Shown: positions 12,997 to 30,096 of the stretch, piece after piece
Position numbering within the stretch: the stretch's first letter is position 1
Layout: the number at the start of each line of letters is the position of its first letter
Assembly: GCF_035207705.1 (NCBI RefSeq)
Contig: NZ_CP128187.1
Coordinates: 3,596,001-3,660,000, forward strand
DNA length: 64,000 nucleotides
From: Maribacter sp. BPC-D8
GTDB taxonomy: Bacteria; Bacteroidota; Bacteroidia; Flavobacteriales; Flavobacteriaceae
Direction of reading: 5' to 3'
Made by a program: the position numbers and the translations under genes
Notes under the pieces: generated by a model
Database searches by the model: none
Seen by the model: the letters and a program-made list of their open reading frames with translations, nothing else
Told to the model about the DNA's origin: nothing

Positions 12997-13101
12997 TGTT
13001 TTGAATTATAATGACCAAGAATTTATATAATAACTGCAGATAATCTGATCAAATATATTTTCAACGGATTTTATTATTCTCCAGATAAAATATAGAAATG
13101 A

Positions 13102-13125: not shown

Positions 13126-13246
13126 ATGAATTTTATTGCTATTTGTATAAAGTGTAGTTCGTCTGATCGAGCAATAATGAGAAATCTTTGACTTTTCAAG
13201 CACATGTAGTTCTCCACTGAGCTCGAATCGATATAAACCCCTGAAT

Positions 13247-13966
13247 TTATTCCACAACCACATTAGCACTCTCTGCACCAAAAAAGACCTCTAGTTCTTT
13301 CAATGTTTCAGTAGATGTTTCTATGTCTTTAACCACCTCACCTTTGTTCAATACCACAATACGTTCGCAAACTTCGGTTACATGAATTAAATCGTGACTA
13401 GATACTAATACCGTTACGTCTTTCTGTTCTGCCAATTCTTTAATGATTTGCTTTAAGCGGATTTGAGTCGTCGGATCCAAATTTGCAAAAGGCTCATCTA
13501 ATATAACCACTTTAGGGTTTCCTATAAAAGAAGCTACAATACCAGCCTTTTTCTGATTTCCTTTAGATAAATCTCTCAAATACTTCTTTTGCCCTAAAAT
13601 TTCGCCGTGAAAGAAATCTTGATACTGTGCCAATAATGCATCTACATCGGCTTTATTTTGACCACGTAGGTCACCTATAAAGTAAAAATACTCTTCGGGA
13701 GTCAAGTACCCAATCAAAAATGTTTCATCTATAAACGATGATGTAAACGGTTTCCAATCTTCGCTGGTGTTTACTTGAACATCATTATTAATGATATGAC
13801 CAGTACTTGGCTGAATCAAATCTAGCAACAAACTAAAAAGTGTAGTTTTACCTGCACCGTTGTTACCAACTAATCCGAAGCTTTGCCCCGTTGGTATATT
13901 TAAAGATTCAATATTAAGTACTTGTTGTGAACCGTATTTCTTTGATAAATTTTCTATTGTAATCAT
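13247..13966 (-). CDS. ABC transporter ATP-binding protein
   Basis: Nucleotide-binding subunit of 239 residues for an ABC-2-type exporter. It has Walker A GNNGAGKTT near residue 35, the signature DLSKGNQKKAGI (the usual LSGGQ replaced by LSKGN, common in this exporter group), Walker B KVVILDEPFANLDP, and the H-loop SSHDL. It is 54 bases downstream of the DUF5687 membrane protein gene, with which it should form the transporter. The cargo is unknown. Confidence 0.93.
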   Translation of the reverse strand: MITIENLSKKYGSQQVLNIESLNIPTGQSFGLVGNNGAGKTTLFSLLLDLIQPSTGHIINNDVQVNTSEDWKPFTSSFIDETFLIGYLTPEEYFYFIGDLRGQNKADVDALLAQYQDFFHGEILGQKKYLRDLSKGNQKKAGIVASFIGNPKVVILDEPFANLDPTTQIRLKQIIKELAEQKDVTVLVSSHDLIHVTEVCERIVVLNKGEVVKDIETSTETLKELEVFFGAESANVVVE

Positions 13967-14020
13967 AATCTTATTGTTCTAATTTTTTAAGATGAAATGA
14001 AATGCGTCAAATGAAAAACC

Positions 14021-15490: not shown

Positions 15491-15637
15491 TCGGTTGGTT
15501 TTAGTATTCAGAATATAAGTAAGAAAAATCTTGAGTTTGTTACAAACAAAATTCAAAATATTCTTTAAGCTCTTATTTTATACCTTACTATGTATCCAGA
15601 AAAAATTAACCGATTAAGTCCTCTTTCTTCCACACTA

Positions 15638-15658
15638 CCGCCAGTTTAAAACTGGTGG
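15638..15658. repeat. Near-perfect palindrome CCGCCAGTTT-A-AAACTGGTGG
   Basis: Ten-base arms match at nine positions around one central base. There is no T-run on either side, so it is not an ordinary terminator. It could be a REP-like element or an operator. Confidence 0.5.
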
Positions 15659-15737
15659 AAACAACAGTAAGCCATTAGCTAATTAACGCCAACTGGGACC
15701 AGTATGGAAATTATATTTTATCGATTTATTAACCAAT

Positions 15738-15781
15738 ACTTGCTAGGTACGGCACTCGGCACAGACGAGCGCTAGCAAAGT
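15738..15781. repeat. Hairpin with GC-rich core
   Basis: ACTTGCTAG at the left pairs with CTAGCAAAGT at the right (one bulge), and inside it CTCG pairs with CGAG around GCACAGA. Its base composition is much more GC-rich than the surroundings, which is typical of small interspersed palindromic repeats. Confidence 0.45.
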
Positions 15782-15825
15782 AATTATCTAAAAAGTTAAA
15801 CAAAAAGCAGTAATACCGACTTTTT

Positions 15826-15837
15826 TGACAAATGTCA
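15826..15837 (+). promoter_or_regulatory. FNR/CRP-like inverted repeat upstream of the reductase gene
   Basis: TGACAAATGTCA is a perfect palindrome with the TTGAC-N4-GTCA pattern of the Crp/Fnr family. Its centre lies about 40 bases before the transcription start predicted from the TAATTTTG element at 15860, which is the usual place for an activator that contacts RNA polymerase. Confidence 0.4.
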
Positions 15838-15859
15838 TATTTTATCGCAAAAGCATGCT

Positions 15860-15867
15860 TAATTTTG
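15860..15867 (+). promoter_or_regulatory. Bacteroidota -7 promoter element TAATTTTG
   Basis: This matches the TAnnTTTG consensus exactly and ends 25 bases before the reductase start codon. No TTTG element lies at the normal distance upstream, which fits an activator-dependent promoter. Confidence 0.45.
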
Positions 15868-15892
15868 TAAATCGATTTAAAGAAACCAACAT

Positions 15893-16942
15893 ATGTCGCA
15901 TTTTCACCCATTAACGGTAAAACATATTAAGAAATTAACGCCAACTTCTGTTGCTGTTACATTTTCAATTCCGAAAGAATTGGCACAGACTTTCACTTTT
16001 ACGGCAGGTCAGTACATCACCATAAAAAAAGAAATTAAAGGTAAAGAACTAAGAAGAGCATATTCTATTAGTTCATCTACCGAAAAAGATGGTATCACAA
16101 TAGGTATCAAAAAAGTAGATAATGGCGGATTCTCGAACTACGCCAATTCAGAATTAAAGGTTGGTGACACCTTAGAAGTAATGGAGCCAGAAGGTCGTTT
16201 TGTTTTTAATACTACGAAAGACATACAGAACATTGCTGCTTTTGCTGCAGGTAGTGGAATTACCCCTATTATGAGTATTGTAAAATCTGTTTTAGACGGT
16301 AACCCAAAGAACAAATTCGTTTTGGTTTACGGTAACAAGTCTTACGAAGAGACGATGTTTTACACCGACTTAGTAAAATTAGAACTAGAATATGCCAATC
16401 GGTTTTTTGTGTACTTCACCAATAGTCAAACACGTGAAGACAAGGCTTTATTTGGAAGAATAGATACCTCAACTGTAAACTATGCATTATTAAATAAGCA
16501 TAAGGATGTTGATTTTGACGGCTACTATTTATGCGGACCAGAAGAGATGATTCGTTTGGTTCAAGATACTTTAGTAGAGAATGAAGTTGAAAAAGATAAA
16601 ATTCATTTTGAACTTTTTACTCCTACTGAAATAAAAGAAGAATTACCTGTACAGGCAGATGGTCAAACATCAATTACTGTTCTTGTTGATGATGAGGAAT
16701 TTCAGTTTACAATGGATAAGAAAACAGTGATACTAGATGCTGTTTTGAAAGAAAATATAGATGCCCCATACTCATGTCAAGGCGGAGTTTGTAGTAGCTG
16801 TATTGCCAAGGTAACGGAAGGAAAAGCAGAAATGGTCATGAACCAAATTTTGACCGATAAAGAAATCGCAGACGGATTTATTCTTACCTGCCAAGCACAC
16901 CCAACTACACCTACTATTAAGGTAGATTATGATGATGTGTAA
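15893..16942 (+). CDS. PaaE-like ferredoxin/flavin reductase
   Basis: A 349-residue three-domain electron-transfer protein. The FAD domain has RRAYSISSS, the NAD(P) domain has FAAGSGITPIMSIVKSVL and YLCGPEEMI, and the C-terminal plant-type 2Fe-2S domain has the cluster motif YSCQGGVCSSCIAKV plus a distal Cys in ILTCQAHP. This is the arrangement of the phenylacetyl-CoA epoxidase reductase subunit PaaE and related oxygenase reductases. No paaABCD genes are next to it, so the partner oxygenase or desaturase is unknown and the specific name should not be assumed. A promoter with an FNR-like site precedes it. Confidence 0.9.
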   Translation: MSHFHPLTVKHIKKLTPTSVAVTFSIPKELAQTFTFTAGQYITIKKEIKGKELRRAYSISSSTEKDGITIGIKKVDNGGFSNYANSELKVGDTLEVMEPEGRFVFNTTKDIQNIAAFAAGSGITPIMSIVKSVLDGNPKNKFVLVYGNKSYEETMFYTDLVKLELEYANRFFVYFTNSQTREDKALFGRIDTSTVNYALLNKHKDVDFDGYYLCGPEEMIRLVQDTLVENEVEKDKIHFELFTPTEIKEELPVQADGQTSITVLVDDEEFQFTMDKKTVILDAVLKENIDAPYSCQGGVCSSCIAKVTEGKAEMVMNQILTDKEIADGFILTCQAHPTTPTIKVDYDDV

Positions 16943-16992
16943 TCCCATTAATCCCCGAAGGGGAAACTTATAAGAAGTAAAAAATTACTTCT

Positions 16993-17079
16993 AAAACGTC
17001 ATTGCGAGGCACGATGCAATCTGACCAATAGGAACAACTATTCGACAGATTACTTCACTATGTTCGTAATGACGTTTTT
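16993..17079. repeat. Interspersed palindromic repeat, also a likely bidirectional terminator
   Basis: AACGTCATTGCGAGGCACGA and the following GCAATCTG are mirrored by CAGATTACTTCACT...GTAATGACGTT, giving two imperfect arms of about 28 bases. The phrase 'cgtcattgcgagg...gaagcaatct' is, from memory, a widespread bacterial intergenic repeat. T-runs flank it on both strands, so it probably ends both the reductase and the patatin transcripts, which converge here. Confidence 0.65.
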
Positions 17080-17126
17080 CTTTTTGTATTACCCCTTATT
17101 ATTAAGTGCCATGCTATAGAAAAGAA

Positions 17127-17900
17127 CTATTCTGGAAACATCGTTTCAAATTTTCGTACCGCAGTCTCATACCCAATTGCATAAGCTTTTTCGATACCTC
17201 TTCGATCTAATAACCCGATATGTTCCAATTCTTGCGATTCGAGAATAAGGTGGCAGTTGTTTATTTTTTGTCGGTTGATGGCATAAATCATCAACCCCGT
17301 TACTCTGCCTGTTAATTGAAACGAGTTGTTCAGATGCTTCTTCTCTAATTTAGAAACTACCGAAACATTACTGCCAATTACATATTCTACTCTAGACAAA
17401 ACCGGCTCTGAAGGAAAATTATTCATTATTCCGCCATCGGCATATAATTCACCATTATATTCTACCGGACTAAAGACGGGTGGTAATGCGGCAGATGCCA
17501 ATAAAGGTTTTATCAATTCACCTTTGTCTATAAAAAGCTCTTCGCCCTTTTGCAAATTAGTGGCTACTACGTGAAGTTCTCTATTCAAAGCCTCAAAACT
17601 ATCTTCAGGAAAATACTGTTTGAAGGACGATATATAACTCTCGCTATTCAATAAACCCGGTTTAGCGACCGCGAAATAATTGTATTTAAAAAGCGGAGTC
17701 TCTTTAAAAAAACGGAGCATATCAATAACTGGTTTATCGGCTGCATACAACGCACCTACCAAGGCGCCAATACTGCTTCCGGAAACAACGCTGGCTTCTA
17801 GACCAAACTCTTGCATTGCCTTTATAACACCTATGTGTGCCATACCTCGAATGCCCCCACCGGAAAGCACCAAACCTACGGACTTAGAACCTATTTGCAT
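17127..17900 (-). CDS. Patatin-like phospholipase, RssA/YchK type
   Basis: A 257-residue cytoplasmic or membrane-peripheral lipid acyl hydrolase. It has the oxyanion-hole loop SGGGIRG at residues 13-19, the nucleophile motif GSSIG with Ser43, and the dyad aspartate Asp155 in YADGGIMNN. Thus all catalytic parts are present. The start MQIGSKSVGLVLSGGG is the only reasonable one. It follows the htrA terminator and probably has its own promoter. The substrate is unknown. Confidence 0.92.
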   Translation of the reverse strand: MQIGSKSVGLVLSGGGIRGMAHIGVIKAMQEFGLEASVVSGSSIGALVGALYAADKPVIDMLRFFKETPLFKYNYFAVAKPGLLNSESYISSFKQYFPEDSFEALNRELHVVATNLQKGEELFIDKGELIKPLLASAALPPVFSPVEYNGELYADGGIMNNFPSEPVLSRVEYVIGSNVSVVSKLEKKHLNNSFQLTGRVTGLMIYAINRQKINNCHLILESQELEHIGLLDRRGIEKAYAIGYETAVRKFETMFPE

Positions 17901-17918
17901 CTATCTAGAATTAATTTC

Positions 17919-17962
17919 AAAAAAAATGCCGAACGGATACTATTATCCGCTCGGCATAAAAT
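17919..17962 (-). terminator. Rho-independent terminator of htrA
   Basis: On the minus strand ATGCCGAGCGGATA pairs with TATCCGTTCGGCAT (one mismatch) around a short loop, followed by eight T. It lies 17 bases after the htrA stop. Confidence 0.9.
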
Positions 17963-17978
17963 TAGTCATTAAAGTGGA

Positions 17979-19493
17979 CTATGAATCCAATCCGAAGGCA
18001 TAATAATTTTTAGTGCCATCTTCATAAACTCCTTCTAACATTACTCCGCCTTTTTTGTTCTCTAAAATAGCAGCAACGTCATCAACATCCTTTACACGTT
18101 TACCATCAATATGCGTGATAATAAACCCTTCTTTCATTTGAGTTTCTTTCTTAATCTTACCAGGATATAATTTAGTTACCTGAACACCGCCATCTAAACC
18201 AAACTTTTTGGCAATGTCTTTATCCACGTTCTCAAAATCGGCACCTAAAAAATTAAACACTTCTTTCTCTTCCTTTTTGATAATGTCAGTACCGCCTTGC
18301 GAATTATGAAGCTCTACTTCCAATTCTTTTTCCTTACCATTTCTATTCACAACAATGGCAACTTTATCACCAGGTCTTTTACCTGCAATAATTTCTTGAA
18401 GCCTAGGTGAAGTTCCTGTCTCTTTTCCATTTACGCTAACGATAATATCACCAGATTCCATACCTGCCAAATCTGCACCACTATCTTCACCAACTTGTTC
18501 TACCCATACCCCTTTGGTAAAATCAACATTTTTCTCTTTCGCCAAGTTACTGTCCATAGTTCTAATACTAACCCCTAACATACCACGTTGTACGTTACCG
18601 AATTTCAGTAAATCTTCAACTACTTTGGTAACGATGTTACTAGGTACTGCAAATCCGTATCCTGTATATGTACCTGTTGTACTTGCAATGGCTGTATTAA
18701 TACCAACAAGGTTTCCGTCTAAATTAACCAATGCACCACCACTGTTACCAGGGTTAATGGCTGCATCTGTCTGAATAAAACTTTCAACAGCAAACTTATC
18801 TGTATTAATATGAATGCTTCTTGCCTTGGCACTTACGATACCTGCAGTAACCGTAGAGTTCAACCCTAACGGATTACCAACTGCCAATACCCACTCACCT
18901 ACTTCTACATCATCAGAATTCACCAATGACATCGTTTTTAAATTATCGGCTTTAATCTGTAAAAGTGCTAAATCTGTAGTTGGGTCTGTACCAATAACCG
19001 TCGCTTTATACGATTGGTTATTATATAAGGTTACCTCGACCTCATCGGCATTATCGATAACATGATTATTTGTAACGATATATCCTTTATCGTTGATAAT
19101 CACTCCCGATCCAGTACCAACTCTCGGTTGAGATTGCATACCATGCGGAGATTGCCCTTTAAACATATCGCCAAAAAACTCTTTAAAAGGATCTGGCAAT
19201 TCGCGCGCACCTTGACTTTGATTCGATGATCCTGTTTGGGTAGATTTAATATGCACTACAGCATCTAAAACTTTTTCAGATGTTTCGGTAAAATCTAAAG
19301 GCTTAATGTTTCCTTCATTGTCCTTCGTATATAAGGCTTGTGCACCCGGTACAGATTCTACGACGGTTACACCGGTAGATTCTTTTATCTCTTGTTTGTT
19401 AAAATGTATTACTCCGTAACTAACTGCTAGAGCAATAACTGCTGAGAAGAAGTAAACCTTCCAAGCGCTTCTGGTATTTGTGTCTGATTTCAT
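17979..19493 (-). CDS. HtrA/DegP-type periplasmic serine protease
   Basis: A 504-residue protease-chaperone for misfolded envelope proteins. An N-terminal membrane helix (VYFFSAVIALAVSYGVIHF) anchors or exports it. The trypsin-like domain has the full triad: His144 in TNNHVID, Asp174 in TTDLALLQI, and Ser251 in NPGNSGGAL. Two PDZ domains follow (RGMLGVSIRTM and a second with GVQVTKLYPGKIKK). The stretch 84-125, rich in Gly, Ser and Gln, is the expected LA-like loop. It is transcribed alone, with a strong terminator behind it. Confidence 0.95.
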   Translation of the reverse strand: MKSDTNTRSAWKVYFFSAVIALAVSYGVIHFNKQEIKESTGVTVVESVPGAQALYTKDNEGNIKPLDFTETSEKVLDAVVHIKSTQTGSSNQSQGARELPDPFKEFFGDMFKGQSPHGMQSQPRVGTGSGVIINDKGYIVTNNHVIDNADEVEVTLYNNQSYKATVIGTDPTTDLALLQIKADNLKTMSLVNSDDVEVGEWVLAVGNPLGLNSTVTAGIVSAKARSIHINTDKFAVESFIQTDAAINPGNSGGALVNLDGNLVGINTAIASTTGTYTGYGFAVPSNIVTKVVEDLLKFGNVQRGMLGVSIRTMDSNLAKEKNVDFTKGVWVEQVGEDSGADLAGMESGDIIVSVNGKETGTSPRLQEIIAGKRPGDKVAIVVNRNGKEKELEVELHNSQGGTDIIKKEEKEVFNFLGADFENVDKDIAKKFGLDGGVQVTKLYPGKIKKETQMKEGFIITHIDGKRVKDVDDVAAILENKKGGVMLEGVYEDGTKNYYAFGLDS

Positions 19494-19867
19494 ATGTATT
19501 TAAATTTTTATAATTCTTCTGATGTGCTAATCGCAATAGCTATGCCATGGATATGAATGTCAATGCTAAAAAAAAATTAAAACTGATTGAAATTTTAAGG
19601 CTTTTTTTAGACTAACCAGTCTGTAACCTTAAAATTTTGTCAAAATCACGGCTAAAAACAAGTTACTAATCTGATTTATTAGCATGTTTATAGTCGAATA
19701 TAAAAGATAGGATACTAAATAGGTAGCATAAAACCGACCAAGTGGTCTAAAACTGTCATTTTGACTTAAAGTAAGATATTTCGTATGTTTTAATTTAGTT
19801 ATTATGCATACTTAAAAAACCTTTGCTATATTTTTACGTAAGTTTAACAACAAGAAATAACTTTTAA
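19494..19867. other. Divergent intergenic region between htrA and the arsenosugar locus
   Basis: No gene is supported in these 374 bases. The only clear structure is the GACCA-N2-TGGTC palindrome at 19736, about 130 bases before the glycosyltransferase start and about 240 bases before htrA. The region is AT-rich and no confident promoter element was assigned. Confidence 0.7.
19736..19747. promoter_or_regulatory. Candidate TetR-type operator before the arsenosugar locus
   Basis: GACCAAGTGGTC is a perfect palindrome (GACCA-AG-TGGTC) in the context ACCGACCAAGTGGTCTAA. It matches the sites in front of the tetR gene at 29318 and 29444 in arm sequence and spacing. Confidence 0.6.
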
Positions 19868-20557
19868 TTGAATTCACTGAGTACAACTGCAATTCTGGTT
19901 TTTGCCAATTCCGCTAAAGAAGATTTAGCGAACAAGCACATTGCCAAAGGTGAAAAGTTATTCGATGTTTTAACCCAAACCACACTCAAGAAAGCTAAAA
20001 ATACAGGTTTACCTGTTTTTCACTTTTCAGATAAAGATCAAGTTGGCGCAACTTTTGGTGAACGTTTTACCAATGCCATTGCCAACGTTTTTGAAAGAGG
20101 TTTTTCTAATATCATTACCATTGGTAATGACACTCCGCATTTAAATACACAGCATCTTAAGCATACTGCCCAACAATTAGCTATGGGTAAGACTGTAATT
20201 GGTCCTTCAAATGATGGTGGTTTCTATTTGTTAGGTCTTCAAAAATCTAACTTTGAAGTTACTGAATTTCAAAATTTACCATGGCAACGCTTCAGCTTAT
20301 ACCACCAAATTTCATTATGGTTACAAGAAGAAGCGTCTGAATTAATAAAATTACCTGTTCTACAAGATTTGGATAACGAAAGAGATTTAGAATCTATTCT
20401 ATCGTTTTCTTCTGGTTTATCATCAACCATATTAATGTTGATCATCGGTTTATTAAAAAGAAGCAGAAGTCTATACTACACTAAACAGAACTTCTCTACC
20501 TTATTTCCTAACAGCTTTCTTTATAACAAAGGCTCACCTGAGGTTTCATTTATCTAA
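19868..20557 (+). CDS. DUF2064/TIGR04282-family glycosyltransferase of arsenosugar synthesis
   Basis: A GT-A-fold glycosyltransferase of 229 residues, of the family called rSAM/selenodomain-associated transferase 1. An in-frame stop lies directly before the TTG at 19868, so this TTG is the most likely start; it is needed to keep the first strand TAILVFANSAKEDLANK. The body has the expected TIGNDTPHLNTQHLKHT and GPSNDGGFYLLGLQ motifs and the conserved WQ. In arsenosugar loci such enzymes are thought to attach the deoxyribosyl-arsenic unit to an aglycone. The C-terminal 40 residues are unusually hydrophobic and basic (STILMLIIGLLKRSRSLYY). It is followed by susC after 52 bases. Confidence 0.82.
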   Translation: MNSLSTTAILVFANSAKEDLANKHIAKGEKLFDVLTQTTLKKAKNTGLPVFHFSDKDQVGATFGERFTNAIANVFERGFSNIITIGNDTPHLNTQHLKHTAQQLAMGKTVIGPSNDGGFYLLGLQKSNFEVTEFQNLPWQRFSLYHQISLWLQEEASELIKLPVLQDLDNERDLESILSFSSGLSSTILMLIIGLLKRSRSLYYTKQNFSTLFPNSFLYNKGSPEVSFI

Positions 20558-20609
20558 TTCCCTCTTTGCCCAATAATTGGGCAAATACAACTTCAGTTTA
20601 AAGCTTTTT

Positions 20610-23600
20610 ATGAGACACTTAACACTAGTGTTGACATTGTTTATGATAAACATGGTCAATGCTCAAGAAACTATAACAGGTATCGTAACAGATACCGATG
20701 GAAATACGATACCGTACGTAAACATTTTACTGTCTGGCACTGTAACTGGATCAACCACCAATGAAAATGGTATGTATACAATCGATGTACCCAACCTTTC
20801 AGGCAATATTGAATTTTCTGTTTTAGGGTATCAATCACAAGTAGTCGCCATAAACAATCGAAGTACAATAAATATAACTCTAGAAGACTCTTCTGAAGTT
20901 TTAGACGAAGTAGTATTGACTGCATTAGGACTAAAAAGGGAAACCAAAGAATTGGGTTATGTCGTTCAAAGTTTAGATGCAAAAGGAGTAACCGAGGTAA
21001 AATCAGTGAATTTCTTAGACAACCTATCTGGTAAATTGGCAGGTGTAACGATTAACCAAGGTGCAACAGGAGTTGGTTCTTCTTCAAAAATTACTATTCG
21101 TGGTGAAGCTTCTTTCTCGAATAACAATCCGCTGTTTATTGTGGACGGTGTGCCTATAAACAATAATTCTGTCTTTAATTTTACCAATGAGGCTGCAGCC
21201 GGATTTCAAGAAATCGATTTTGGAAATGGCGCTATGGATGTGAATCCTGATGATATTGCCGAAGTGTCTGTATTAAAAGGACCTAGTGCGGCTGCACTTT
21301 ACGGAACAAGAGCATCTAACGGTGTAATCATCATAGAAACCAAAAGCGGGAAGAATACGAAAGGATTAGGCGTGAGCTACAACACCAGTTTCTTTGTAGA
21401 TTCAGCATTTCAGTTACCTGATTTTCAAAATGAATACGGACAAGGGAATTCTGGGGAATTTGCTTTTGTAGACGGATTAGGTGGTGGAACAAATGATTTA
21501 ATCACCTACAGTTGGGGACCTCGTTTAGATGTTGGTAATCTTATTCCGCAATATGATAGTCCCGTGACATTGGCAGATGGTACTGTTGTTCGAGGTGGTG
21601 ATACTGCTCTTTACAATGGAAATACGATTACACCGACCGAGTTTAAATCGAATCCTGATAATTTGAAGAACTTCTATGAAACGGGGACAACCTTAATCAA
21701 CAACATCGCTATTTCTAACGGATTTGAAAAAGGTAACTATCGTCTTTCTTTTACCGATTTGAGAAGTGAATCTATAATACCCGGTGTTAATCTAGACCGA
21801 CAAACCGTAAGTGCAAAATTGAATTTTCAACCTATTGATAGATTACGCATAAATTCATCTATTAGTTATATCAATTCTAATAGTGACAACAGACCCTCTA
21901 ACGGCTATGGATCTGAAAACGCAAATTATTCTTTAGTCGCTTGGGGTCCGCGTTCTTTAAACATTGAGAATTTAAAAAACTACTGGCAACCAGGTTTAGA
22001 AGGCATACAACAGTATTCGTATAACTATACCTTTTTCGATAATCCGTATTTCATTCTTAATGAAAATACCAATTCGTTCAATAGAGATCGTGTTTTCGGA
22101 AACATCTCCGCTAGCTATGATATTTCAGAGCATATAACGGCATCTATTAGAACAGGTATGGATTATTCAAGTGAATTACGCCAATTGAAAAGAGCCTATA
22201 GTTCTAATCGTTTTTCTAATGGTGCTTATGCCGAGCATGATGTTTTCTACAGAGAAGTGAACACCGATTTTCTATTAAACTATGCAAATCAATTCAATGA
22301 CTTTAAAGTTGATGTGTCCCTTGGCGGAAATCGATTGGATCAAAAAGCATTTACTTCACAAGCACAAACAACAAGTTTAGCACAACCAGGTATTTTTAGA
22401 TTATCGAATGCTGCTTCACCTATTGAAGTATTCGAATTTGAATCGAATAAAAGAATAAACAGTTTTTATGGCTTGGCAAAATTCGGATACAAAGACTTTC
22501 TATTCTTAGATATCACAGGCAGAAACGATTGGTCAAGTGCTTTGGCTGCTCCGTTTTCAGTAGATAACACCTCATTCTTTTACCCGTCGGTTTCTAGTAG
22601 TTTTATACTATCGGAAGTAGTTGATTTGCCTAAGGTAATTTCATTTGCAAAACTAAGAGCAAGTTGGGCACAGGTTGGTAATGATACAAATCCATATCAG
22701 ACTACAGGTGCTTTTGTAGCACAGACACCGTTTAATGGTCAGCCGACTTTCAGTAATTCAAACACTATTGCAAATGCTAATCTACAACCAGAATTAACCT
22801 CTTCATTTGAAGTAGGCGCAGATGTAAGATTCTTTGGCGACCAACTAAGATTCGACGTTTCTTACTATAACGCATTAACCAAAGATCAAATCATTTCTTT
22901 ACCTATCGGTATCTCTTCCGGTTATACCCAACAAGTAGTTAATGGTGGCGAAGTTCGCTCTAAAGGAGTAGAGATTATTTTGGGCATATCACCAATACTA
23001 AGTGAGAATTTAAAATGGAACAGCACTTTAAATTTTAGTACTAATAGATCTACAGTAGAAAGCCTACCACAAGATGAAGGTCGATTAACACTGGCGTACT
23101 CTAGAATTTACGACAGTCAAAACCAAACGGTATTTTTACAGGCAGAAGAAGGTGGTCGCGTTGGTGATTTATACGGAACAGGATATCTTAAAAATGAAAA
23201 TGGCGATTTTATCTTAACGGATGAAGGCAGATACATCCCTGATAACGAATTGCAAAAATTGGGGAATTACAATCCTGATTTTATGTTGGGCTTTAATAAT
23301 CAATTCAATTACAAGAACTGGAATCTAGGTTTTCTTTTCGATTGGCGACAAGGCGGAATCATTGTATCTAGAACAAGAGCATTAGGTAATGTTGGTGGTC
23401 AGCTAGCGGAAACAGCAAATAGACCAGAAGAAGGTATTATACCGGAAGGCGTTGTAAATACAGGCACTGCAGATAATTCTGTTTATACTGAAAATACAGT
23501 GGCAGTATCGGCAGAAAGTTACTATCGTCAGTTTTATGATAGAAATCATGAAGAAAACAACACCTATGATGCTTCGTTTTTGAAGTTGCGTCAATTATCT

Positions 23601-23813
23601 GTTGGTTACACCTTTGACAACCTAAGTATATTCAACCAAGATGCAACTTTGAGTTTATCACTTATTGGAAAAAACTTATTTGCAATTACAGAGAATCCAC
23701 ATTTTGATCCAGAGCAATTAGCGGTACAAGGACAAGGATTTATAAGTGGTGTTGAAGACATGTCATACGCAACCACCAGAAGTATAGGTTTCAAAGCCGG
23801 ATTTAATTTTTAA
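20610..23813 (+). CDS. SusC/RagA-family TonB-dependent outer-membrane transporter
   Basis: A large outer-membrane importer of about 1067 residues. The start at 20610 gives the signal peptide MRHLTLVLTLFMINMVNAQ; the frame is also open from an ATG at 20577. The N-terminal carboxypeptidase-regulatory-like domain (TGIVTDTDGNTIPYVNILLS) is followed by the plug (KLAGVTINQGATGVGSSSKI, then NPLFIVDGVPI and GPSAAALYGTRASNGVIII) and a 22-strand barrel that ends in an aromatic residue (GFKAGFNF). The paired SusD lipoprotein follows after 10 bases. SusCD pairs import oligosaccharides, peptides or other large nutrients. Here the partners suggest a ligand linked to organoarsenic or sugar-nucleoside metabolism, which is inference. 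Confidence 0.95.
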   Translation: MRHLTLVLTLFMINMVNAQETITGIVTDTDGNTIPYVNILLSGTVTGSTTNENGMYTIDVPNLSGNIEFSVLGYQSQVVAINNRSTINITLEDSSEVLDEVVLTALGLKRETKELGYVVQSLDAKGVTEVKSVNFLDNLSGKLAGVTINQGATGVGSSSKITIRGEASFSNNNPLFIVDGVPINNNSVFNFTNEAAAGFQEIDFGNGAMDVNPDDIAEVSVLKGPSAAALYGTRASNGVIIIETKSGKNTKGLGVSYNTSFFVDSAFQLPDFQNEYGQGNSGEFAFVDGLGGGTNDLITYSWGPRLDVGNLIPQYDSPVTLADGTVVRGGDTALYNGNTITPTEFKSNPDNLKNFYETGTTLINNIAISNGFEKGNYRLSFTDLRSESIIPGVNLDRQTVSAKLNFQPIDRLRINSSISYINSNSDNRPSNGYGSENANYSLVAWGPRSLNIENLKNYWQPGLEGIQQYSYNYTFFDNPYFILNENTNSFNRDRVFGNISASYDISEHITASIRTGMDYSSELRQLKRAYSSNRFSNGAYAEHDVFYREVNTDFLLNYANQFNDFKVDVSLGGNRLDQKAFTSQAQTTSLAQPGIFRLSNAASPIEVFEFESNKRINSFYGLAKFGYKDFLFLDITGRNDWSSALAAPFSVDNTSFFYPSVSSSFILSEVVDLPKVISFAKLRASWAQVGNDTNPYQTTGAFVAQTPFNGQPTFSNSNTIANANLQPELTSSFEVGADVRFFGDQLRFDVSYYNALTKDQIISLPIGISSGYTQQVVNGGEVRSKGVEIILGISPILSENLKWNSTLNFSTNRSTVESLPQDEGRLTLAYSRIYDSQNQTVFLQAEEGGRVGDLYGTGYLKNENGDFILTDEGRYIPDNELQKLGNYNPDFMLGFNNQFNYKNWNLGFLFDWRQGGIIVSRTRALGNVGGQLAETANRPEEGIIPEGVVNTGTADNSVYTENTVAVSAESYYRQFYDRNHEENNTYDASFLKLRQLSVGYTFDNLSIFNQDATLSLSLIGKNLFAITENPHFDPEQLAVQGQGFISGVEDMSYATTRSIGFKAGFNF

Positions 23814-23823
23814 GAAAAAGAAG

Positions 23824-25248
23824 ATGAAACATATATATAGCATTCTAATCTTGTTGTTGGTCATTGGCTGCACAAAAGATTTTGAAGAAATTAATACAAA
23901 TACGAATGATCCTGTAGCAGTGCAACCTAGTCTATTGTTAAGACAGGTTATCTATGACTTTGGTGAACAAATGTCTTATGAAGGGTTTACGGCAGGTAAC
24001 TTATTAGGGCAATATAGTACGTCATTAGATTTTAACTTATTTGACCGGCATGATTTAAAATCTCCACAATTAGGTGGAAATCCGTGGCCTATATTCTATC
24101 AGAATTTACGCGATAATGAAATTATATTGAATCTATCTCAAGAGAATACCGCATATACTGTCTATGAAGGTCCCGCAAGAATTATGAAAGCGTATATGGC
24201 GGCTGGCTTAACAGATTTATTTGGTGACGTTCCTTATTCCGAAGCATTTAAGGGAGATACAGAAACCGTGACGGCCGTTTATGATTCTCAAGAATCTATT
24301 TATATGGACGAAGGCGGCATATTTGATAATCTTGATAAAGGAATTTTAGCCATACAGAACTATTCTGGAACCATTGCTTTAGAAGGTGATATTTTATTTA
24401 ATGGTGATTTAAATGGATGGATTCGTTTTGCAAATTCGTTGAAGATTAAATATCTAATGCGTGTTTCAGGTAAAATAGATGTTGCTTCTCAATTACAGGC
24501 AATCGCAAGTGAAGGTAATTTCATTAACGATAATAGCGAAAATGCGATTTTCAATTTTACCGATGGTGAGCCGAATAGTTTTAGACTGGCACAACTTAGG
24601 ATTGGTGATTTTAATAATTACGTGCTTTCTGAAACGATGGATGAAATTTTGACTGATTTAAACGACCCACGTATCGCACAATTGTATCAACCATTTGCAA
24701 ATAGTACAGATGGTGGTTACAACGGATTATTAAATGGGATTGATGCATCTGTTGGAGTCTCGTTAGCTGATTACTCTTTGCTAGGTACTATTTTCAGAGA
24801 GAATACCGGACTATTAGACGCCAACTTCATGACAAGCATGGAAACGCACTTTCTATTAGCGGAAGCCGCCCAAAAAGGGTTGATTACTGCAGATGCTGAA
24901 AGTCTATATAATACTGGGGTAACACAAGCATTTGAATATTGGCTAGTAGATTTACCTGCTGATTATTTAACGGTTGATGCTTCGTTGACAAACGGTAATC
25001 CTATAGAAAATATCATTACTCAAAAATGGATTGCAAATAGCATTAATGGTTATGAAGGTTGGGTTGAATATAGAAGAACTGGTTTCCCTCAATTGAAAAC
25101 AATTTCAGCTAGTTTGAATAATGATTTGATTCCGATTCGCATGCCTTATCCTGCTGAGGAAGAAGCTTTAAATAATGCCAATTATACCGAAGCTTCAAAT
25201 AACACGGAAGGCAATAGTATAAATGTGGCAGTTTGGTGGGATGAGTAA
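23824..25248 (+). CDS. SusD/RagB-like surface lipoprotein
   Basis: A 474-residue lipoprotein partner of SusC, acting as the lid over the transporter. The lipobox is LLVIGCTKDF with Cys at residue 16, followed by acidic residues typical of surface-exported lipoproteins. The fold pattern (INTNTNDPVAVQPSLLLRQV at the front, GLTDLFGDVPYSEAFKG in the first helical region, NPIENIITQKWIANSINGYE near the end) is that of the PF12771-type SusD-like group rather than the starch-type SusD. It is spaced 10 bases from susC and shares its transcript. Confidence 0.93.
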   Translation: MKHIYSILILLLVIGCTKDFEEINTNTNDPVAVQPSLLLRQVIYDFGEQMSYEGFTAGNLLGQYSTSLDFNLFDRHDLKSPQLGGNPWPIFYQNLRDNEIILNLSQENTAYTVYEGPARIMKAYMAAGLTDLFGDVPYSEAFKGDTETVTAVYDSQESIYMDEGGIFDNLDKGILAIQNYSGTIALEGDILFNGDLNGWIRFANSLKIKYLMRVSGKIDVASQLQAIASEGNFINDNSENAIFNFTDGEPNSFRLAQLRIGDFNNYVLSETMDEILTDLNDPRIAQLYQPFANSTDGGYNGLLNGIDASVGVSLADYSLLGTIFRENTGLLDANFMTSMETHFLLAEAAQKGLITADAESLYNTGVTQAFEYWLVDLPADYLTVDASLTNGNPIENIITQKWIANSINGYEGWVEYRRTGFPQLKTISASLNNDLIPIRMPYPAEEEALNNANYTEASNNTEGNSINVAVWWDE

Positions 25249-25252
25249 CAGA

Positions 25253-25280
25253 GTTAGGAATTAGGAATTAGGAATTAGGA
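25253..25280. repeat. Short tandem repeat, four copies of a 7-base unit
   Basis: One GTTAGGA and three ATTAGGA units lie head to tail between the SusD and symporter genes, right before the symporter ribosome-binding region. Seven-base units can change number by slippage, which here would change the spacing between the two genes but no reading frame. Confidence 0.8.
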
Positions 25281-25294
25281 AAAATCAAAAAGAA

Positions 25295-26635
25295 ATGACT
25301 GAAGTAAAGATTTGGCAATGGGGATTAATAATAGCATCAAGTTTGGCGTTATTTTTCCTTTCCCCATGGGCAAAAGATACCAATCAGTTTTTTAAAGCGG
25401 TTCAAAAAAAGAAAGCGCCCAATACGTTCATGTTAATGGGTAGTTTGATTATCTCTTGGATATTCGCCAAGAGTATAACCAACGCCGCAAATTTAGGGTT
25501 AGACTATGGTATTGTTGGTGGTGTTGCTTATGCTGGATATTATCTGTCATTTGCTGTAGCAGGTCTTGTAATTTATAAGATGAGACTACATGGAAAGTAC
25601 ACAAGTATTCATCATTTCTTATCCTCTAAATTTGGTAAATCAGCAGTAAATATTTTTTCCATTTTAATAGCATTTCGCCTATTCAATGAGGTTTGGAGTA
25701 ACACTATGGTTATTGGTTCTTACTTTGGTGATATGGGTACGAGTCCATATTATTGGTCCATTTTAGTGTTTACCGGACTAACTTTAGCCTATGTACTCAA
25801 AGGAGGTATGAGTAGCTCGATTTTTACCGATGTTGTCCAAATGGGGCTATTTTCTATACTATTAGCGGTAATATTGTTCACTATTTTTGGGAAGGATAAT
25901 GCAATCACCACTACCGAAGTAGTTAATTCAGGTATTTGGTCCTTTGAAACAGGGCTAAATTTATTATTCGCTGCATTACTACAATCCTTTAGTTACCCCT
26001 TTCATGACCCGGTGTTAACCGATAGAGGATTTATCAGTAGTCCGAAAGTAACATTGAAGAGTTTTTTATGGGCAAGTGTATTAGGTGCAATCTGTATCAT
26101 CTTATTTAGTATTATCGGCGTGTATGCACAATTTCAAGGTATGCACGGTCAGGCTGCAGTACAAGTTGGTAAAGCATTTGGAACCGTAATATTATTAGTC
26201 ATCAATTTCATCATGATCACATCAGCTGCATCTACATTAGACTCCACATTTTCATCATTTTCAAAATTATTGGCATTAGATTTAAATCTAGGAAATACAT
26301 TAAAATTTGGTCGTTGGTCTATGGTAGCAATTGCTGTTTTAGGAACCATACCCGTTTTTTTAGATGCAGAGATTTTATCTGCTACAACAATTAGCGGAAC
26401 CATGGTAATAGGGCTAACTCCCGTTTTTATATTTTGGAAGGATAAAGCACCTAAAATCAGTTTTCACTTAAGCGTATTTATAGGATTACTATTTGGGTTC
26501 CTTTTAATTTTTAACTGGTTTCCAGATAGTTTGATTTTCACGACCGGCAAGTATGCCGATTTACTTTGGATTAATTTTTGGGGCATTTTATGTTGCCTAT
26601 TCGTTTATATAATACCTACATGGATAAAGAAATAA
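25295..26635 (+). CDS. Sodium:solute symporter (SSS family)
   Basis: Inner-membrane transporter of 446 residues with about 12-13 hydrophobic helices and the LeuT-like layout of the SSS/SLC5 family. Useful landmarks are ANLGLDYGIVGGVAYAGYYL, HGKYTSIHHFLSSKFGKSA, FHDPVLTDRGFIS and SAASTLDSTFSSFSKLLALD, the last being the common helix-8 region (S-A-A-x-S-T-L-D-S) near the Na+2 site. It probably carries into the cytoplasm what SusCD brings into the periplasm. The last 16 bases overlap the next gene in another frame, so the two are translationally coupled. The substrate is unknown. Confidence 0.9.
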   Translation: MTEVKIWQWGLIIASSLALFFLSPWAKDTNQFFKAVQKKKAPNTFMLMGSLIISWIFAKSITNAANLGLDYGIVGGVAYAGYYLSFAVAGLVIYKMRLHGKYTSIHHFLSSKFGKSAVNIFSILIAFRLFNEVWSNTMVIGSYFGDMGTSPYYWSILVFTGLTLAYVLKGGMSSSIFTDVVQMGLFSILLAVILFTIFGKDNAITTTEVVNSGIWSFETGLNLLFAALLQSFSYPFHDPVLTDRGFISSPKVTLKSFLWASVLGAICIILFSIIGVYAQFQGMHGQAAVQVGKAFGTVILLVINFIMITSAASTLDSTFSSFSKLLALDLNLGNTLKFGRWSMVAIAVLGTIPVFLDAEILSATTISGTMVIGLTPVFIFWKDKAPKISFHLSVFIGLLFGFLLIFNWFPDSLIFTTGKYADLLWINFWGILCCLFVYIIPTWIKK

Positions 26636-27825
26636 AACATATTGGTGCCAAGAACGGAAAGCTATTGCTTTTTGGTGGCGTGTATAGTAATCTTCAAGCT
26701 TTGGAGCAACTGATTTCCATTGCTGAAGAAGCAGGAATTCAACCCGAGAACTGTATAAGCACCGGAGACCTTACCGGCTATTGTGCACAACCAGAAGAAA
26801 CGGTACAACTGTTTCAAAAATGGGGCGCGATTAGTATTGCTGGCAATGTAGAATTGCAACTAGCAAACGATAGCGAAGATTGTGGTTGCGATTTTAAGAG
26901 TGGTAGCCGTTGCGACGATTTTTCGAAAATGTGGTTTCCATATACTAAAGGGCACTTATCGCAACAGTCTTTAGAGTGGATGAAGGAAATTCCCGAGTAC
27001 ATCAGTTTTGACTATGGCAGCAAAAAAGTTACGGTAGTCCATGGAAATTATGGTAATACCTCAGAATTTGTATTTAAATCAAACGCCACGGAAAGTAAAG
27101 AACACTGTTTTCAAGAGACCAATAGTGATATAATTATTGCGGGGCATTGTGGTTTACCTTTTCATCAAACTATAAAGGAAAATTTATGGTTGAATCCTGG
27201 TGTTATTGGTATGCCAGCAAATGATGGCACTACCCGAGTTTGGTATATGATATTGGATACTGAAGATGGTGAAGTAACCTATAAACATCATTCATTCGAA
27301 TATGATGCCGAAACCGCACAAAAATTAATGTACAAAAATCACTTGCCCGAAGCCTATGGCGATACGCTTACTTCTGGCATTTGGGACAATATGGAAATAC
27401 TCCCTGAAATCGAAAAAATGGGACAGGGAATTCCGATTCATTTTAACCAAGAACAAAAAGATTCAATAAAACCTAAAACACAAAAAAAGATGGCAAATAC
27501 GTACTACGACCCAGCAGATTTAAGAAAATTCGGTAAAATAACAGAGTGGAGCGAAGAGCTTGGAACAAAATTTTTCGATTATTATGGTAAGGTTTTCGAA
27601 GAAGGCGCACTAAGTGCTAGAGAAAAGTCTCTAATTGCTTTAGCTGTCTCTCATGTAGTTAAGTGTCCGTATTGCATTGATGCCTATACCAAAGACGGAT
27701 TGCAAAAAGGGATTACGAAAGAAGAGATGATGGAAGCAGTACATGTGGGCGCCGCCATAGAAAGCGGTGCAACATTAGTGCATGGTGTACAGATGATGAA
27801 TAAGTATAACAAATTGTCAATGTAA
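26620..27825 (+). CDS. Metallophosphoesterase-like domain fused to an AhpD-like CxxC domain
   Basis: A 401-residue two-part protein. The start at 26620 gives MDKEIKHIGAKNGKLLLFGG; an in-frame ATG at 26578 lies deep in the symporter gene. Residues 1 to about 255 have the calcineurin-like phosphoesterase layout, but with changed metal motifs: GGVYSN instead of GDIHGN, a normal STGDLTGY, GNVE instead of GNHE, VVHGN retained, and GHCG instead of GHTH. A three-cysteine patch DCGCDFKSGSRC (Cys88, 90, 98) lies between. Residues 289-401 form a complete AhpD/carboxymuconolactone-decarboxylase-type protein starting MANTYYDPADLRKFG with the motif HVVKCPYCIDAYTKDG. This second part matches the arsenosugar-associated peroxidase-like family (TIGR04169 as I recall), normally a separate gene. 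A separate start at the internal ATG (27490) cannot be excluded. Confidence 0.85.
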   Translation: MDKEIKHIGAKNGKLLLFGGVYSNLQALEQLISIAEEAGIQPENCISTGDLTGYCAQPEETVQLFQKWGAISIAGNVELQLANDSEDCGCDFKSGSRCDDFSKMWFPYTKGHLSQQSLEWMKEIPEYISFDYGSKKVTVVHGNYGNTSEFVFKSNATESKEHCFQETNSDIIIAGHCGLPFHQTIKENLWLNPGVIGMPANDGTTRVWYMILDTEDGEVTYKHHSFEYDAETAQKLMYKNHLPEAYGDTLTSGIWDNMEILPEIEKMGQGIPIHFNQEQKDSIKPKTQKKMANTYYDPADLRKFGKITEWSEELGTKFFDYYGKVFEEGALSAREKSLIALAVSHVVKCPYCIDAYTKDGLQKGITKEEMMEAVHVGAAIESGATLVHGVQMMNKYNKLSM

Positions 27826-27830
27826 ATTTC

Positions 27831-28141
27831 GTTGTTCGTTGATGGTTGTTCCTAGCAGCTTTCTTCAATAATCAATAACTTGAAATTAAAGTTAGTTTAT
27901 AAAAATATTGCAAATGGAATGCTCTTCATGAACATCCATTATTAAGAAAAAGAAATAAAATGTTGTGATATTAGTTGTTTGTTGTCGGTTGTTAGTTTTA
28001 CTCAATATTCGCCAATGATTACTAATCCAAAATATAACAAAATAGAAATTGCTATCTATTAAAGAAGAAATCAAAATAGGTTGAATTGTTTGTTGATTCG
28101 TAATAAAATAAACGAACAACAGACAACCATCAACCAACAAC
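27831..28141. repeat. 311-base non-coding segment bounded by inverted GTTG-rich repeats
   Basis: GTTGTTCGTTGATGGTTGTT at the left end is matched at 18 of 20 positions by the reverse complement of the right end (28122-28141). Similar GTTGTTTGTTG motifs occur inside near 27974 and 28087. The segment fills nearly the whole gap between the fusion gene and arsS. The layout resembles a small non-autonomous element or a large RNA hairpin. An open frame of 103 codons on the minus strand enters arsS and is not credible. Confidence 0.5.
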
Positions 28142-28150
28142 AAAAGAAGA

Positions 28151-29206
28151 ATGGCTACAAAATCATTAAAAGCTAAAGGGAACGAATTAGCAGTTTCCAA
28201 CAAGCAATTAGAAATATTAAACGGAGGAATTTTTGCTGATGGAGAGCTTCCTTATTTTAAAGATAAGATTGCCGAAATTGGTCACTTCCCGTTACGCCCT
28301 AAAAAGCTGGAAATTTTGCAAATCAATGTTGGTTACATGTGTAATCAGGTTTGTGAGCATTGCCACGTAGATGCTGGTCCGGATCGCAAAGAGATTATGA
28401 CTCGCGATACCATGCGACAGTGTTTAGAGGTCATTAAAAATACAGGAGCTCACACCTTAGATTTAACAGGTGGTGCACCAGAAATGAATCCTGATTTTGA
28501 ATGGTTTGTAGAAGAAGCTGCAAAAGCCGGTATTAAAGATTTTATTGTTCGTTCTAACCTTACTATTATTAGGGCTAATAAAAAATATTATCATTTACCA
28601 GATTTCTTTAAAAAGCATAATGTACATGTTATTTCTTCAATGCCACATTATACCCGTGGTAAAACAGATAAGCAAAGAGGTGACGGTGTTTTTGACAAGT
28701 CGATCAAAGCATTGCAAGAATTAAACGACAGAGGTTATGGTTTACCAGGTAGCGGACTCCGTTTAGATTTAGTTTATAATCCGTCAGGTGCATATTTACC
28801 AGGTGACCAAGCAGCGATGGAAAAGGATTTCAAAAAAGCCTTAAAAGAAGATTTTGATATTCAGTTTCATAATCTTTTTGCCATCACAAATTTACCCATT
28901 GCACGATTCTTAGATTATTTAATAGCATCTGAGAATTACGAAGATTATATGTATTCATTAGTGGAAGCATATAACCCCTCTGCAGTAGAAAATGTAATGT
29001 GCACCAATACCATTTCTATTAGTTGGGATGGTTGGCTTTATGATTGTGATTTTAACCAAATGCTAGACCTAAAAGTAGCTAGTAAGGTGAAGCATATTAA
29101 AGATTATAACGAAGACTTGTTGAACGATAGAAACATTATCATATCACAGCATTGTTATGGTTGTACAGCAGGTGCCGGTAGTAGTTGCCAGGGTACTGTA
29201 GCATAA
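28151..29206 (+). CDS. arsS: Radical SAM protein ArsS of arsenosugar biosynthesis
   Basis: A 351-residue radical SAM enzyme of the rSAM/selenodomain family (TIGR04167). The 4Fe-4S motif is CNQVCEHC (Cys64, Cys68, Cys71), then HVDAGPDRKEIMTRDTM and LDLTGGAPEMNPDFEW, all typical. The C-terminal domain has further cysteines (YDCDFNQM, and HCYGCTAGAGSSCQG with Cys335, 338 and 346) that may hold auxiliary clusters or bind arsenic; some relatives carry selenocysteine in this part. ArsS is known to join a 5'-deoxyadenosyl group to dimethylarsenic in arsenosugar synthesis. No arsM methyltransferase is in the window. A terminator follows the gene. Confidence 0.9.
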   Translation: MATKSLKAKGNELAVSNKQLEILNGGIFADGELPYFKDKIAEIGHFPLRPKKLEILQINVGYMCNQVCEHCHVDAGPDRKEIMTRDTMRQCLEVIKNTGAHTLDLTGGAPEMNPDFEWFVEEAAKAGIKDFIVRSNLTIIRANKKYYHLPDFFKKHNVHVISSMPHYTRGKTDKQRGDGVFDKSIKALQELNDRGYGLPGSGLRLDLVYNPSGAYLPGDQAAMEKDFKKALKEDFDIQFHNLFAITNLPIARFLDYLIASENYEDYMYSLVEAYNPSAVENVMCTNTISISWDGWLYDCDFNQMLDLKVASKVKHIKDYNEDLLNDRNIIISQHCYGCTAGAGSSCQGTVA

Positions 29207-29228
29207 CACATTCCGAGATGAAAATTAA

Positions 29229-29267
29229 GAACCGTTTGATGATTTACATTGAACGGTTTTTTGTTTT
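29229..29267 (+). terminator. Terminator after arsS
   Basis: AACCGTT and AACGGTT pair around a 17-base loop, and T-rich sequence (TTTTTTGTTTT) follows. It ends the locus 23 bases after the arsS stop. Confidence 0.75.
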
Positions 29268-29317: not shown

Positions 29318-29329
29318 GACCACTTAGTT
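29318..29329. promoter_or_regulatory. Candidate operator 1 before the tetR-family gene
   Basis: GACCACTTAGTT is a palindrome of the GACYA-N2-TRGTY type. With the stronger copy at 29444 it brackets the likely promoter of the regulator gene. Confidence 0.5.
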
Positions 29330-29443: not shown

Positions 29444-29455
29444 GACCACATGGTC
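29444..29455. promoter_or_regulatory. Candidate operator 2 before the tetR-family gene
   Basis: GACCACATGGTC is a perfect palindrome (GACCA-CA-TGGTC), 23 bases before the regulator start codon, so a protein bound there would block transcription or initiation. It points to autoregulation. Confidence 0.65.
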
Positions 29456-29478: not shown

Positions 29479-30096
29479 ATGAACAAGAGCCTTAAGCGCA
29501 TGGCAACCATGCAACGTTTACAGAACACCGGATTAGAATTGTTTTATGCCCAAGGATATTACGATACTAGTATAGATGATATTCTAAAAAAGCTAGATCT
29601 TTCTAAGGGGGCTTTTTACTATCATTTCGATTCTAAAGAAGACTTCTTCATTCAAATAATTCAAAATTTACTAGCACGTAAAATCTATAGTACTTTAATA
29701 GAGCCAATAGAGGGGCATGAGAACCCGTTAAAATTAATAACGAAATGTTTTGATGATGCTATGGAAACTGCCGTGCATAATGAAATGGATTATGGGTGTA
29801 TTTTAAGTAATTTCTTAACTGAATTCAATGGTAAAAATGAAGTGATTATGCGTCACTTAAATGAAATTGTTACCGTTTGGGAAGTAAACTTGGTTACAAC
29901 ATTACAAAGAGGAAAATTTAATGGTTACTTAGATCGTCATGTAGATTGTGAAGCTGCGGCTACTTTTTTAATGAGTTCGTACTTCGGAGTTAGAATTTTA
30001 ATGACAAGTGCAGCCCCGTCAGCTAAAAAGTACAGATTTATGTCTCAACTACGTCAATACTTTAAAGGTATAGAAGCCAAGCCGGTTAATTCTTAA
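29479..30096 (+). CDS. TetR/AcrR-family transcriptional regulator
   Basis: A 205-residue repressor. The N-terminal helix-turn-helix (QRLQNTGLELFYAQGYYDTS, then IDDILKKLDLSKGAFYYHFD) is a textbook TetR DNA-binding domain. The C-terminal ligand domain has several cysteines (YGCILSNF, HVDCEAAATF), which may matter if the inducer is thiol-reactive. Two palindromes lie in its 5' region and one each before the arsenosugar locus and sprE. The stop codon overlaps the stop of the converging GT9 gene by three shared positions. It is probably the regulator of the neighbouring arsenosugar locus, inferred from the sites. Confidence 0.9.
   Translation: MNKSLKRMATMQRLQNTGLELFYAQGYYDTSIDDILKKLDLSKGAFYYHFDSKEDFFIQIIQNLLARKIYSTLIEPIEGHENPLKLITKCFDDAMETAVHNEMDYGCILSNFLTEFNGKNEVIMRHLNEIVTVWEVNLVTTLQRGKFNGYLDRHVDCEAAATFLMSSYFGVRILMTSAAPSAKKYRFMSQLRQYFKGIEAKPVNS

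Follow-up and report, generated by a model that had tools for sequence, protein, structure and literature searches.

The DNA analysed here (the window, 64,000 nucleotides) comes from Maribacter sp. BPC-D8, whose genome is one contig of 4.78 Mb with a completeness of 100. Six plus-strand open reading frames (ORFs) form a row at 19868-29206 and encode, in order, a degenerate DUF2064/TIGR04282-like protein (GTx), SusC, SusD, an SSS-type symporter, a fused metallophosphoesterase (MPE)~AhpD protein and the radical SAM enzyme ArsS (Table 1). A first-pass annotation of this DNA had described six same-direction genes with arsenosugar-type marks. The ORF list and the NCBIfam and Pfam profiles confirm this observation, while the interpretation attached to it is partly supported and is sharpened below. 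SusC and SusD are separated by 10 bp, SusD and the symporter by 46 bp, and the fused gene and arsS by 325 bp; the symporter and MPE genes overlap by 16 bp, counted from the ATG at 26620.

ArsS scores 437.5 bits against the equivalog model TIGR04167 (cut-off 300), and the nearest named ArsS loci are those of Maribacter (96% identity). A two-membrane uptake chain had also been proposed. Its outer-membrane part is clear: SusC matches TIGR04056 at 588 bits (cut-off 368) and has plug, barrel and CarboxypepD_reg_2 domains, and SusD matches PF12771 at 291 bits (cut-off 27), with 26 solved relatives at E <= 0.001. The SSS assignment of the inner-membrane component is marginal (PF00474, 23.8 bits against a cut-off of 22.8; TIGR00813, 34.5 bits, below its cut-off of 184), and no solved relative of the symporter was found at E<=1. 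The best solved relative of SusC is BT_2264 (437 bits; next best 119), the SusC of a peptide-type system that serves larger solutes at the outer membrane. The AhpD-like and metallophosphoesterase-like proteins, previously listed as separate, are one ORF (26578-27825) holding both Metallophos_2 (42 bits) and TIGR04169 (196 bits, cut-off 120). GTx had been called a DUF2064 glycosyltransferase; the DUF2064 match holds (74 bits, cut-off 25.8) and the enzymatic assignment does not, as TIGR04282 is below cut-off (92.8 bits against 134) and the GxxKTRL motif is lost. In de-duplicated alignments, each residue of this motif occurs in 90% or more of the 141 canonical rows, and the columns conserved across the 66 GTx rows include none of them; the GTx rows do conserve a C-terminal NKGSP.

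Table 1. Features of the locus and its flanks, in window coordinates
Feature	Position	Strand	Basis or remark
Candidate TetR operator GACCAAGTGGTC	19736..19747	.	perfect GACCAnnTGGTC site, 132 bp before first gene
GTx, degenerate DUF2064/TIGR04282-like protein	19868..20557	+	TIGR04282 and DUF2064 profile scores
SusC/RagA TonB-linked outer-membrane transporter	20577..23813	+	likely ATG at 20610; TIGR04056 588 bits
SusD-like lipoprotein	23824..25248	+	PF12771
Divergent SSS-type symporter	25295..26635	+	PF00474 marginal
Fused CGC-type metallophosphoesterase-fold and AhpD-like protein	26620..27825	+	ATG 26620; AhpD part from about 27490
AhpD-ArsS spacer, 325 bp, with GTTGTTsGTTGATGGTTG repeats in both orientations	27826..28150	+	pattern search
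ArsS, radical SAM enzyme	28151..29206	+	TIGR04167
Terminator-like stem-loop 3' of arsS	29227..29261	+	15 pairs, then T-rich tail
Weaker operator-like site	29318..29329	.	8/10 positions; 161 bp before tetR
Candidate TetR operator GACCACATGGTC	29444..29455	.	perfect GACCAnnTGGTC site, 35 bp before tetR
TetR-family regulator	29479..30096	+	PF00440 50 bits, PF16925 41 bits

Recurrence of the row was examined in a family-level draw of 299 genomes and a phylum-level draw of 395, with the genome of the window (G000) and G176 in both (G denotes a sampled genome, L a locus stretch). At the family level, ArsS is present in 216 of 299 genomes and a symporter ortholog (threshold 1e-30; weakest match 3e-167) in 41, of which 40 have ArsS. 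Within the 41 symporter stretches, the window's included, ArsS lies at most 7.2 kb away in 39, and MPE is present in 40, SusD in 37, GTx in 36 and the MPE~AhpD fusion in eight. The importer block therefore recurs in 37/299 genomes, the window's own counted, and chance neighbourhood of the six genes is rejected on account of this recurrence across loci and genomes. SusCD and ArsS do co-occur, so a lack of co-occurrence cannot be held against the first-pass reading. Three genomes (G168, G002 and G121) carry symporter and MPE without SusD. GTx was considered as a marker of the importer and rejected, because it also occurs without SusCD (L043, L046-L051, L053 and L054).

Among 80 named ArsS loci, the commonest order is AhpD-ArsS-rhodanese-GT-PNP-ArsM-(fatty-acid-hydroxylase-like)-DUF547-GT2, where GT is a glycosyltransferase. 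SusD is found in 15 of the 80, one of which (L111) ends at a contig end; these loci carry GTx-SusC-SusD-SSS-MPE after ArsS, or, in the Maribacter group, before AhpD-ArsS. In the phylum-level draw the symporter is present in 9/395 genomes, and all nine have ArsS, compared to 156/395 overall. SusC-SusD-SSS-MPE is also found in four other families (f5, f8, f9 and f10). Seven phylum-level loci were newly read, and ArsS lies within the stretch in L232-L234 and L238; L234, from another family, repeats SusC-SusD-SSS-MPE~AhpD-ArsS, fusion included.

The arsenic methyltransferase ArsM had been reported missing from the locus, and this absence extends to the whole genome for both models searched. NF038099 has no match in the genome of the window, the best NF008823 match is 36.6 bits (cut-off 263), and an ortholog search with the ArsM of a relative gave at best 26.5 bits. 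Neither the two models nor the ortholog search thus revealed an ArsM elsewhere in the genome. ArsM is defined throughout as NF038099 or NF008823, the two models applied genome-wide. NF038099 is present in 168/299 family-level genomes, never without ArsS (0/168). NF008823 was sought in 54 genomes, namely the 48 with ArsS but without NF038099 and six others. Among the former, it exceeds its cut-off in 15 of the 26 that lack the symporter and in only one of the 22 that have it, so the idea that all NF038099-less genomes have the canonical ArsM does not hold. The two ArsM types partly substitute for each other in ArsS genomes (15/26 of those without symporter). The single symporter-bearing NF038099-less genome with NF008823 over cut-off is G121, which lacks SusCD; its gene (G121:C1:464811-465596) has one in-frame stop.

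Of 37 ArsS genomes with SusCD, 21 have neither ArsM type, compared to 11 of 179 without SusCD (Fisher p = 8.8e-12). When only genomes at least 90% complete are counted, the figures are 20/36 and 6/156 (p = 1.4e-12); five of the 11 genomes that lack both ArsM and SusCD are less than 90% complete (G062, G065, G095, G170 and G281). Because kinship matters in such a comparison, we built an ArsS tree of 147 genomes. A likelihood-ratio test on this tree favours dependence of ArsM change on SusCD over independence (p = 3.1e-7), with fitted rates of ArsM loss of 9.15 with SusCD and 0.16 without, and of gain of 7.6 and 0.4. Across 17 path-independent pairs, ArsM went opposite to SusCD in 6.5 on average and in the same sense in 0.5, and 10 showed no difference (median p 0.06). 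Restriction to well-supported branches left 6 pairs (4.1 opposite, 0.1 same, 1.8 none; median p 0.125). These tests replace an earlier version based on NF038099 alone (counts 18/22/150/26 with p = 3.5e-7; p = 0.0018 on the tree; 6.4 pairs opposite, 0.7 in the same sense and 12 without a difference). The importer block in arsenosugar loci is recurrent and tracks the absence of arsenic methylation. Together with the lack of ArsM here, the contrast of 21/37 with 11/179 backs the earlier proposal that dimethylarsenic is supplied from elsewhere or imported.

Where checked, genes with a presumed role downstream of methylation persist in genomes without ArsM. In 13 of the 21 loci with SusCD and no ArsM, rhodanese, canonical glycosyltransferase and PNP lie in the same stretch as ArsS, and the other eight have the Maribacter order. 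Of these eight, the genome of the window was followed further; it carries a second locus, GT2-PNP-GT-rhodanese, at 4,258,450-4,261,356 with a DUF547 gene nearby; its canonical TIGR04282 glycosyltransferase, outside the window, scores 214 bits. GT2, PNP and rhodanese were found with hidden Markov models built from protein clusters matched by TIGR04283, NF006054 and NF045521. Retention of these genes, where checked, means that import of the ArsM product or of a precursor fits better than import of finished arsenosugars. That relatives with the importer often lack the arsenic-methylating enzyme suggests uptake of ready-methylated arsenic instead of making it. We therefore favour, with middling confidence, the capture of a dedicated uptake system by an operon for arsenosugar biosynthesis, with the importer supplying methylated arsenic in place of ArsM. 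The imported substrate would be methylated arsenic or an organoarsenical that yields it.

The first-pass annotation had left import, salvage and recycling side by side. Of these, precursor import is favoured, and salvage of complete arsenosugars fits less well since genomes without ArsM retain ArsS, rhodanese, glycosyltransferase and PNP. Salvage would mean that complete algal arsenosugars, or their phosphodiesters or lipids, are imported, trimmed, and re-used or burnt for carbon, with ArsS acting in parallel. We regard this as rather unlikely, even though in 40 of 41 loci the symporter has a phosphoesterase-fold protein next to it, and the nearest solved relative of SusC, BT_2264, is an outer-membrane system for larger solutes. 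Salvage leaves the retained pathway genes unexplained unless arsenosugars are degraded as far as dimethylarsenic, and the block is also found in families f5, f8, f9 and f10. An excerpt of one source, which describes seaweed arsenic as mainly held as arsenosugars (PMC5478658), agrees with salvage.

The phosphoesterase domain itself also bears on salvage. Binuclear metallophosphoesterases bind metal through DxH, GD, GNH, H and GHxH motifs. In the protein of the window (hereafter CGC-type), GD, N, H and the first H of GHxH are kept, but DxH, the catalytic H and the last H of GHxH are lost, and with them metal site 1. The earlier label of metallophosphoesterase-like protein is therefore right as to family (Metallophos_2) and probably wrong as to phosphoesterase chemistry, and cleavage of arsenosugar phosphodiesters by this protein is unlikely. 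In 59 de-duplicated rows, with that of the window as reference, the cysteines C88, C90 and C98 never vary, with C55 present in 98%. Among the homologs matched by two queries, the motif CGCxFxxGxxC is found in 116/120 and 120/120, counting the best 120 of 3155 and of 3105. An AlphaFold2 model of the fused protein has a pLDDT of about 93 over residues 1-250, with the AhpD part poorly modelled, and shares the fold of SapH-like/Metallophos_2 phosphodiesterases, with SapH and 3rqz as the closest solved structures (TM-score by target length 0.83 for 3qfm_A and 0.76-0.78 for 3rqz). Compared to the 3rqz type, DxH has become GxY, GNH has become GNV, GHxH has become GHCG, and an invariant CGC...C has been added. 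We infer that the thiols of the CGC-type protein form a site for a metal or for trivalent arsenic, and that it is not a working binuclear phosphodiesterase.

Importers of other kinds were seen near pathway genes, and those of G063 and of the plasmid operon L293 count as a convergence in favour of our reading. G063 has no symporter and neither ArsM type; its locus (L257) runs AhpD-ArsS-GTx, followed at 11191-18730 by a TonB-type receptor, a binding protein (385 bits against NF008633, cut-off 203), two permeases, an ATPase and, ahead of rhodanese-GT, a second radical SAM protein. In L079 an outer-membrane barrel protein follows GTx (OMP_b-brl_4, 105 bits). A plasmid of the alphaproteobacterium Roseomonas haemaphysalidis (NZ_CP061178.1, L293, 2859-9819) carries TIGR04282-DUF547-two radical SAM-PhnD-like-PhnE-ATPase-CGC-type protein, the last with 39% identity to that of the window. 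This operon resembles the row of the window in joining a CGC-type protein to TIGR04282, DUF547 and an importer; it differs in having a PhnCDE-type ABC importer (TIGR01098, 148 bits; PhnE, 241 bits) in place of SusCD and symporter and, instead of ArsS, two other radical SAM proteins whose best NCBIfam matches, below cut-off, are to the TrsS and Rv1681 families. Homology between these and the second radical SAM protein of L257 was considered and dropped, as the matches were no more than short and weak (37 and 25 bits).

The phosphonate-type importer of L293 raises the question of whether the import concerns arsenic at all. The substrate could be a phosphonate, a selenium compound, a peptide or a carboxylate whose role is limited to feeding or protecting the pathway, or the so-called arsenosugar loci could use another element where ArsM is missing. 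Related symporters do lie amid phenylacetate genes and on a plasmid beside chemotaxis genes, and BT_2264 is a peptide-type system. However, NF038099 is never found without ArsS, ArsM absence tracks SusCD, and the ArsS of the window lies well within its equivalog model, all of which make a non-arsenic substrate unlikely.

Several observations weigh against import of methylated arsenic as a replacement for ArsM. SusCD systems usually take molecules larger than dimethylarsinate. ArsM is still present in 16 of the 37 SusCD genomes, so the importer is not simply a replacement, and the raised rates of both gain and loss with SusCD point to faster ArsM turnover as a whole. The independent pairs point the same way as the tree test but are few, and are suggestive. 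The tree is that of ArsS, not of species, and holds 147 of the 216 ArsS genomes; those left out were not fetched or had no full ArsS frame, and in G087 ArsS lies outside the stretch. In 10 of the 11 genomes without ArsM and SusCD no importer was recognised, their neighbouring genes not having been scanned; the eleventh is G063 with its other importer. The block is present without ArsS in the stretch read in G087, and likewise no ArsS was seen in the stretches of L235-L237, three of the seven newly read phylum-level loci. G242 has a lone symporter (L194, 5986-13719; 59% identity) amid phenylacetate-degradation genes and no ArsS, and a symporter on a Marinobacter adhaerens plasmid (L292, 8992-10353; 45% identity) adjoins a chemotaxis receptor gene. 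The symporter family is therefore not exclusive to arsenic loci. For SusD, a search on plasmids returned only relatives below 60% identity.

The 16 genomes that have both SusCD and ArsM would also suit a cell that exports its own arsenic-containing product and retrieves it, as with metallophores, since the importer would then be useful even where methylarsenic can be made. Re-uptake of this kind predicts no link with ArsM absence, contrary to the result of the SusCD/ArsM test, and we consider it very improbable.

If the importer does feed biosynthesis, the steps may be arranged as follows. SusC and SusD would move an organoarsenical over the outer membrane, energised by TonB, and the SSS-type symporter would move it over the inner membrane. 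The CGC-type phosphoesterase-fold protein, fused to AhpD here, would receive or process it via its invariant cysteines. ArsS would then join a dimethylarsenic unit to the adenosyl group of S-adenosylmethionine, and the rhodanese, canonical glycosyltransferase, PNP and GT2 of the second locus would be further pathway genes. The direction of transport, the order of the steps, transcription as an operon and its regulation are all proposed. ArsS adenosylates arsenic in arsenosugar biosynthesis, according to PMC12159101, which cites biochemical work on ArsS (Cheng 2021).

Compared to the known arsenosugar biosynthesis locus (NF038099, TIGR04167, TIGR04169, TIGR04282, TIGR04283), the row shares ArsS, an AhpD-like protein and a TIGR04282-related gene, with rhodanese, canonical glycosyltransferase, PNP and GT2 in the second locus of the same genome. 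It differs in that the genome has neither searched ArsM type, in the presence of SusC, SusD, symporter and CGC-type protein, and in the fusion of AhpD to the CGC-type domain. Likewise, SusC and SusD are paired, with plug and CarboxypepD_reg_2, as in the SusCD nutrient importers of Bacteroidota (BT_2263/BT_2264), but the six genes include no glycoside hydrolase, peptidase or other enzyme of polymer breakdown, and the partners are arsenosugar genes. Overall, the claim combines a strong genomic association, computed from gene content, recurrence, the lack of both ArsM types here, the link of SusCD with missing ArsM and the loss and gain of motifs, with a proposed substrate.

A tetR gene follows the row. 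The two perfect GACCAnnTGGTC sites in the window (19736 and 29444) flank the row, and one-mismatch sites occur elsewhere in the window at 13108 and 34265. A survey of 27 TetR-bearing loci (28 rows, two from the genome of the window) found sites matching at least 9/10 positions near the tetR start in 12/27, and before the first gene in five other loci in addition to the window, the latter taken from the window scan. An operator-like site lies at the same position in G286 (L155), and L040 has one with one mismatch 213 bp before GTx; none of at least 9/10 was found in L161, L162, L046 or L070. The linked regulator may govern the operon through GACCAnnTGGTC sites. This is only a lead; TetR is present in 8/41 symporter loci and also in loci without SusCD (e.g. 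L042, L047 and L051).

The terminator-like stem after arsS is weak alone, because eight such sites were found in the region compared to 6.6 in shuffles. No RNA element exceeded its gathering score in window 14000-34500. The repeat in the AhpD-ArsS spacer has three matches at <=3 mismatches (0.05 expected), the first of which supplied the pattern. Three resembling pieces are found elsewhere in the genome, at C1:3211465-3211841 and C1:1969151, and the repeat is perhaps a small interspersed element. Elsewhere in the window, a PaaE-like gene lies upstream (15893-16942; 329 bits, below the TIGR02160 cut-off), and at 34338-59698 there are 25 successive minus-strand ORFs, each 100 amino acids or longer, with short gaps.

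A review (PMC12608789) describes how arsenosugars, arsenobetaine and arsenolipids enter cells, human ones among them, as largely unknown. No paper on SusCD or TonB uptake in arsenosugar loci was among the matches listed in the open-licence literature, judged by titles and the beginnings of abstracts. If our reading is correct, an outer-membrane uptake route for an organoarsenical would here be defined genetically for the first time within the literature searched, and SusCD with an SSS symporter, a TonB receptor with an ABC importer, and PhnCDE-type importers would be alternative solutions. More tentatively, many Bacteroidota could be arsenic cross-feeders, which import the methylated or organic arsenic of others through a SusCD-symporter system and a cysteine-rich receiver and build arsenosugars without methylating arsenic. 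If the importer feeds ArsS, some arsenosugar-making bacteria depend on the methylated arsenic of their neighbours. Models of arsenic cycling would then change, and the gene set would offer a means to test the purpose of arsenosugars.

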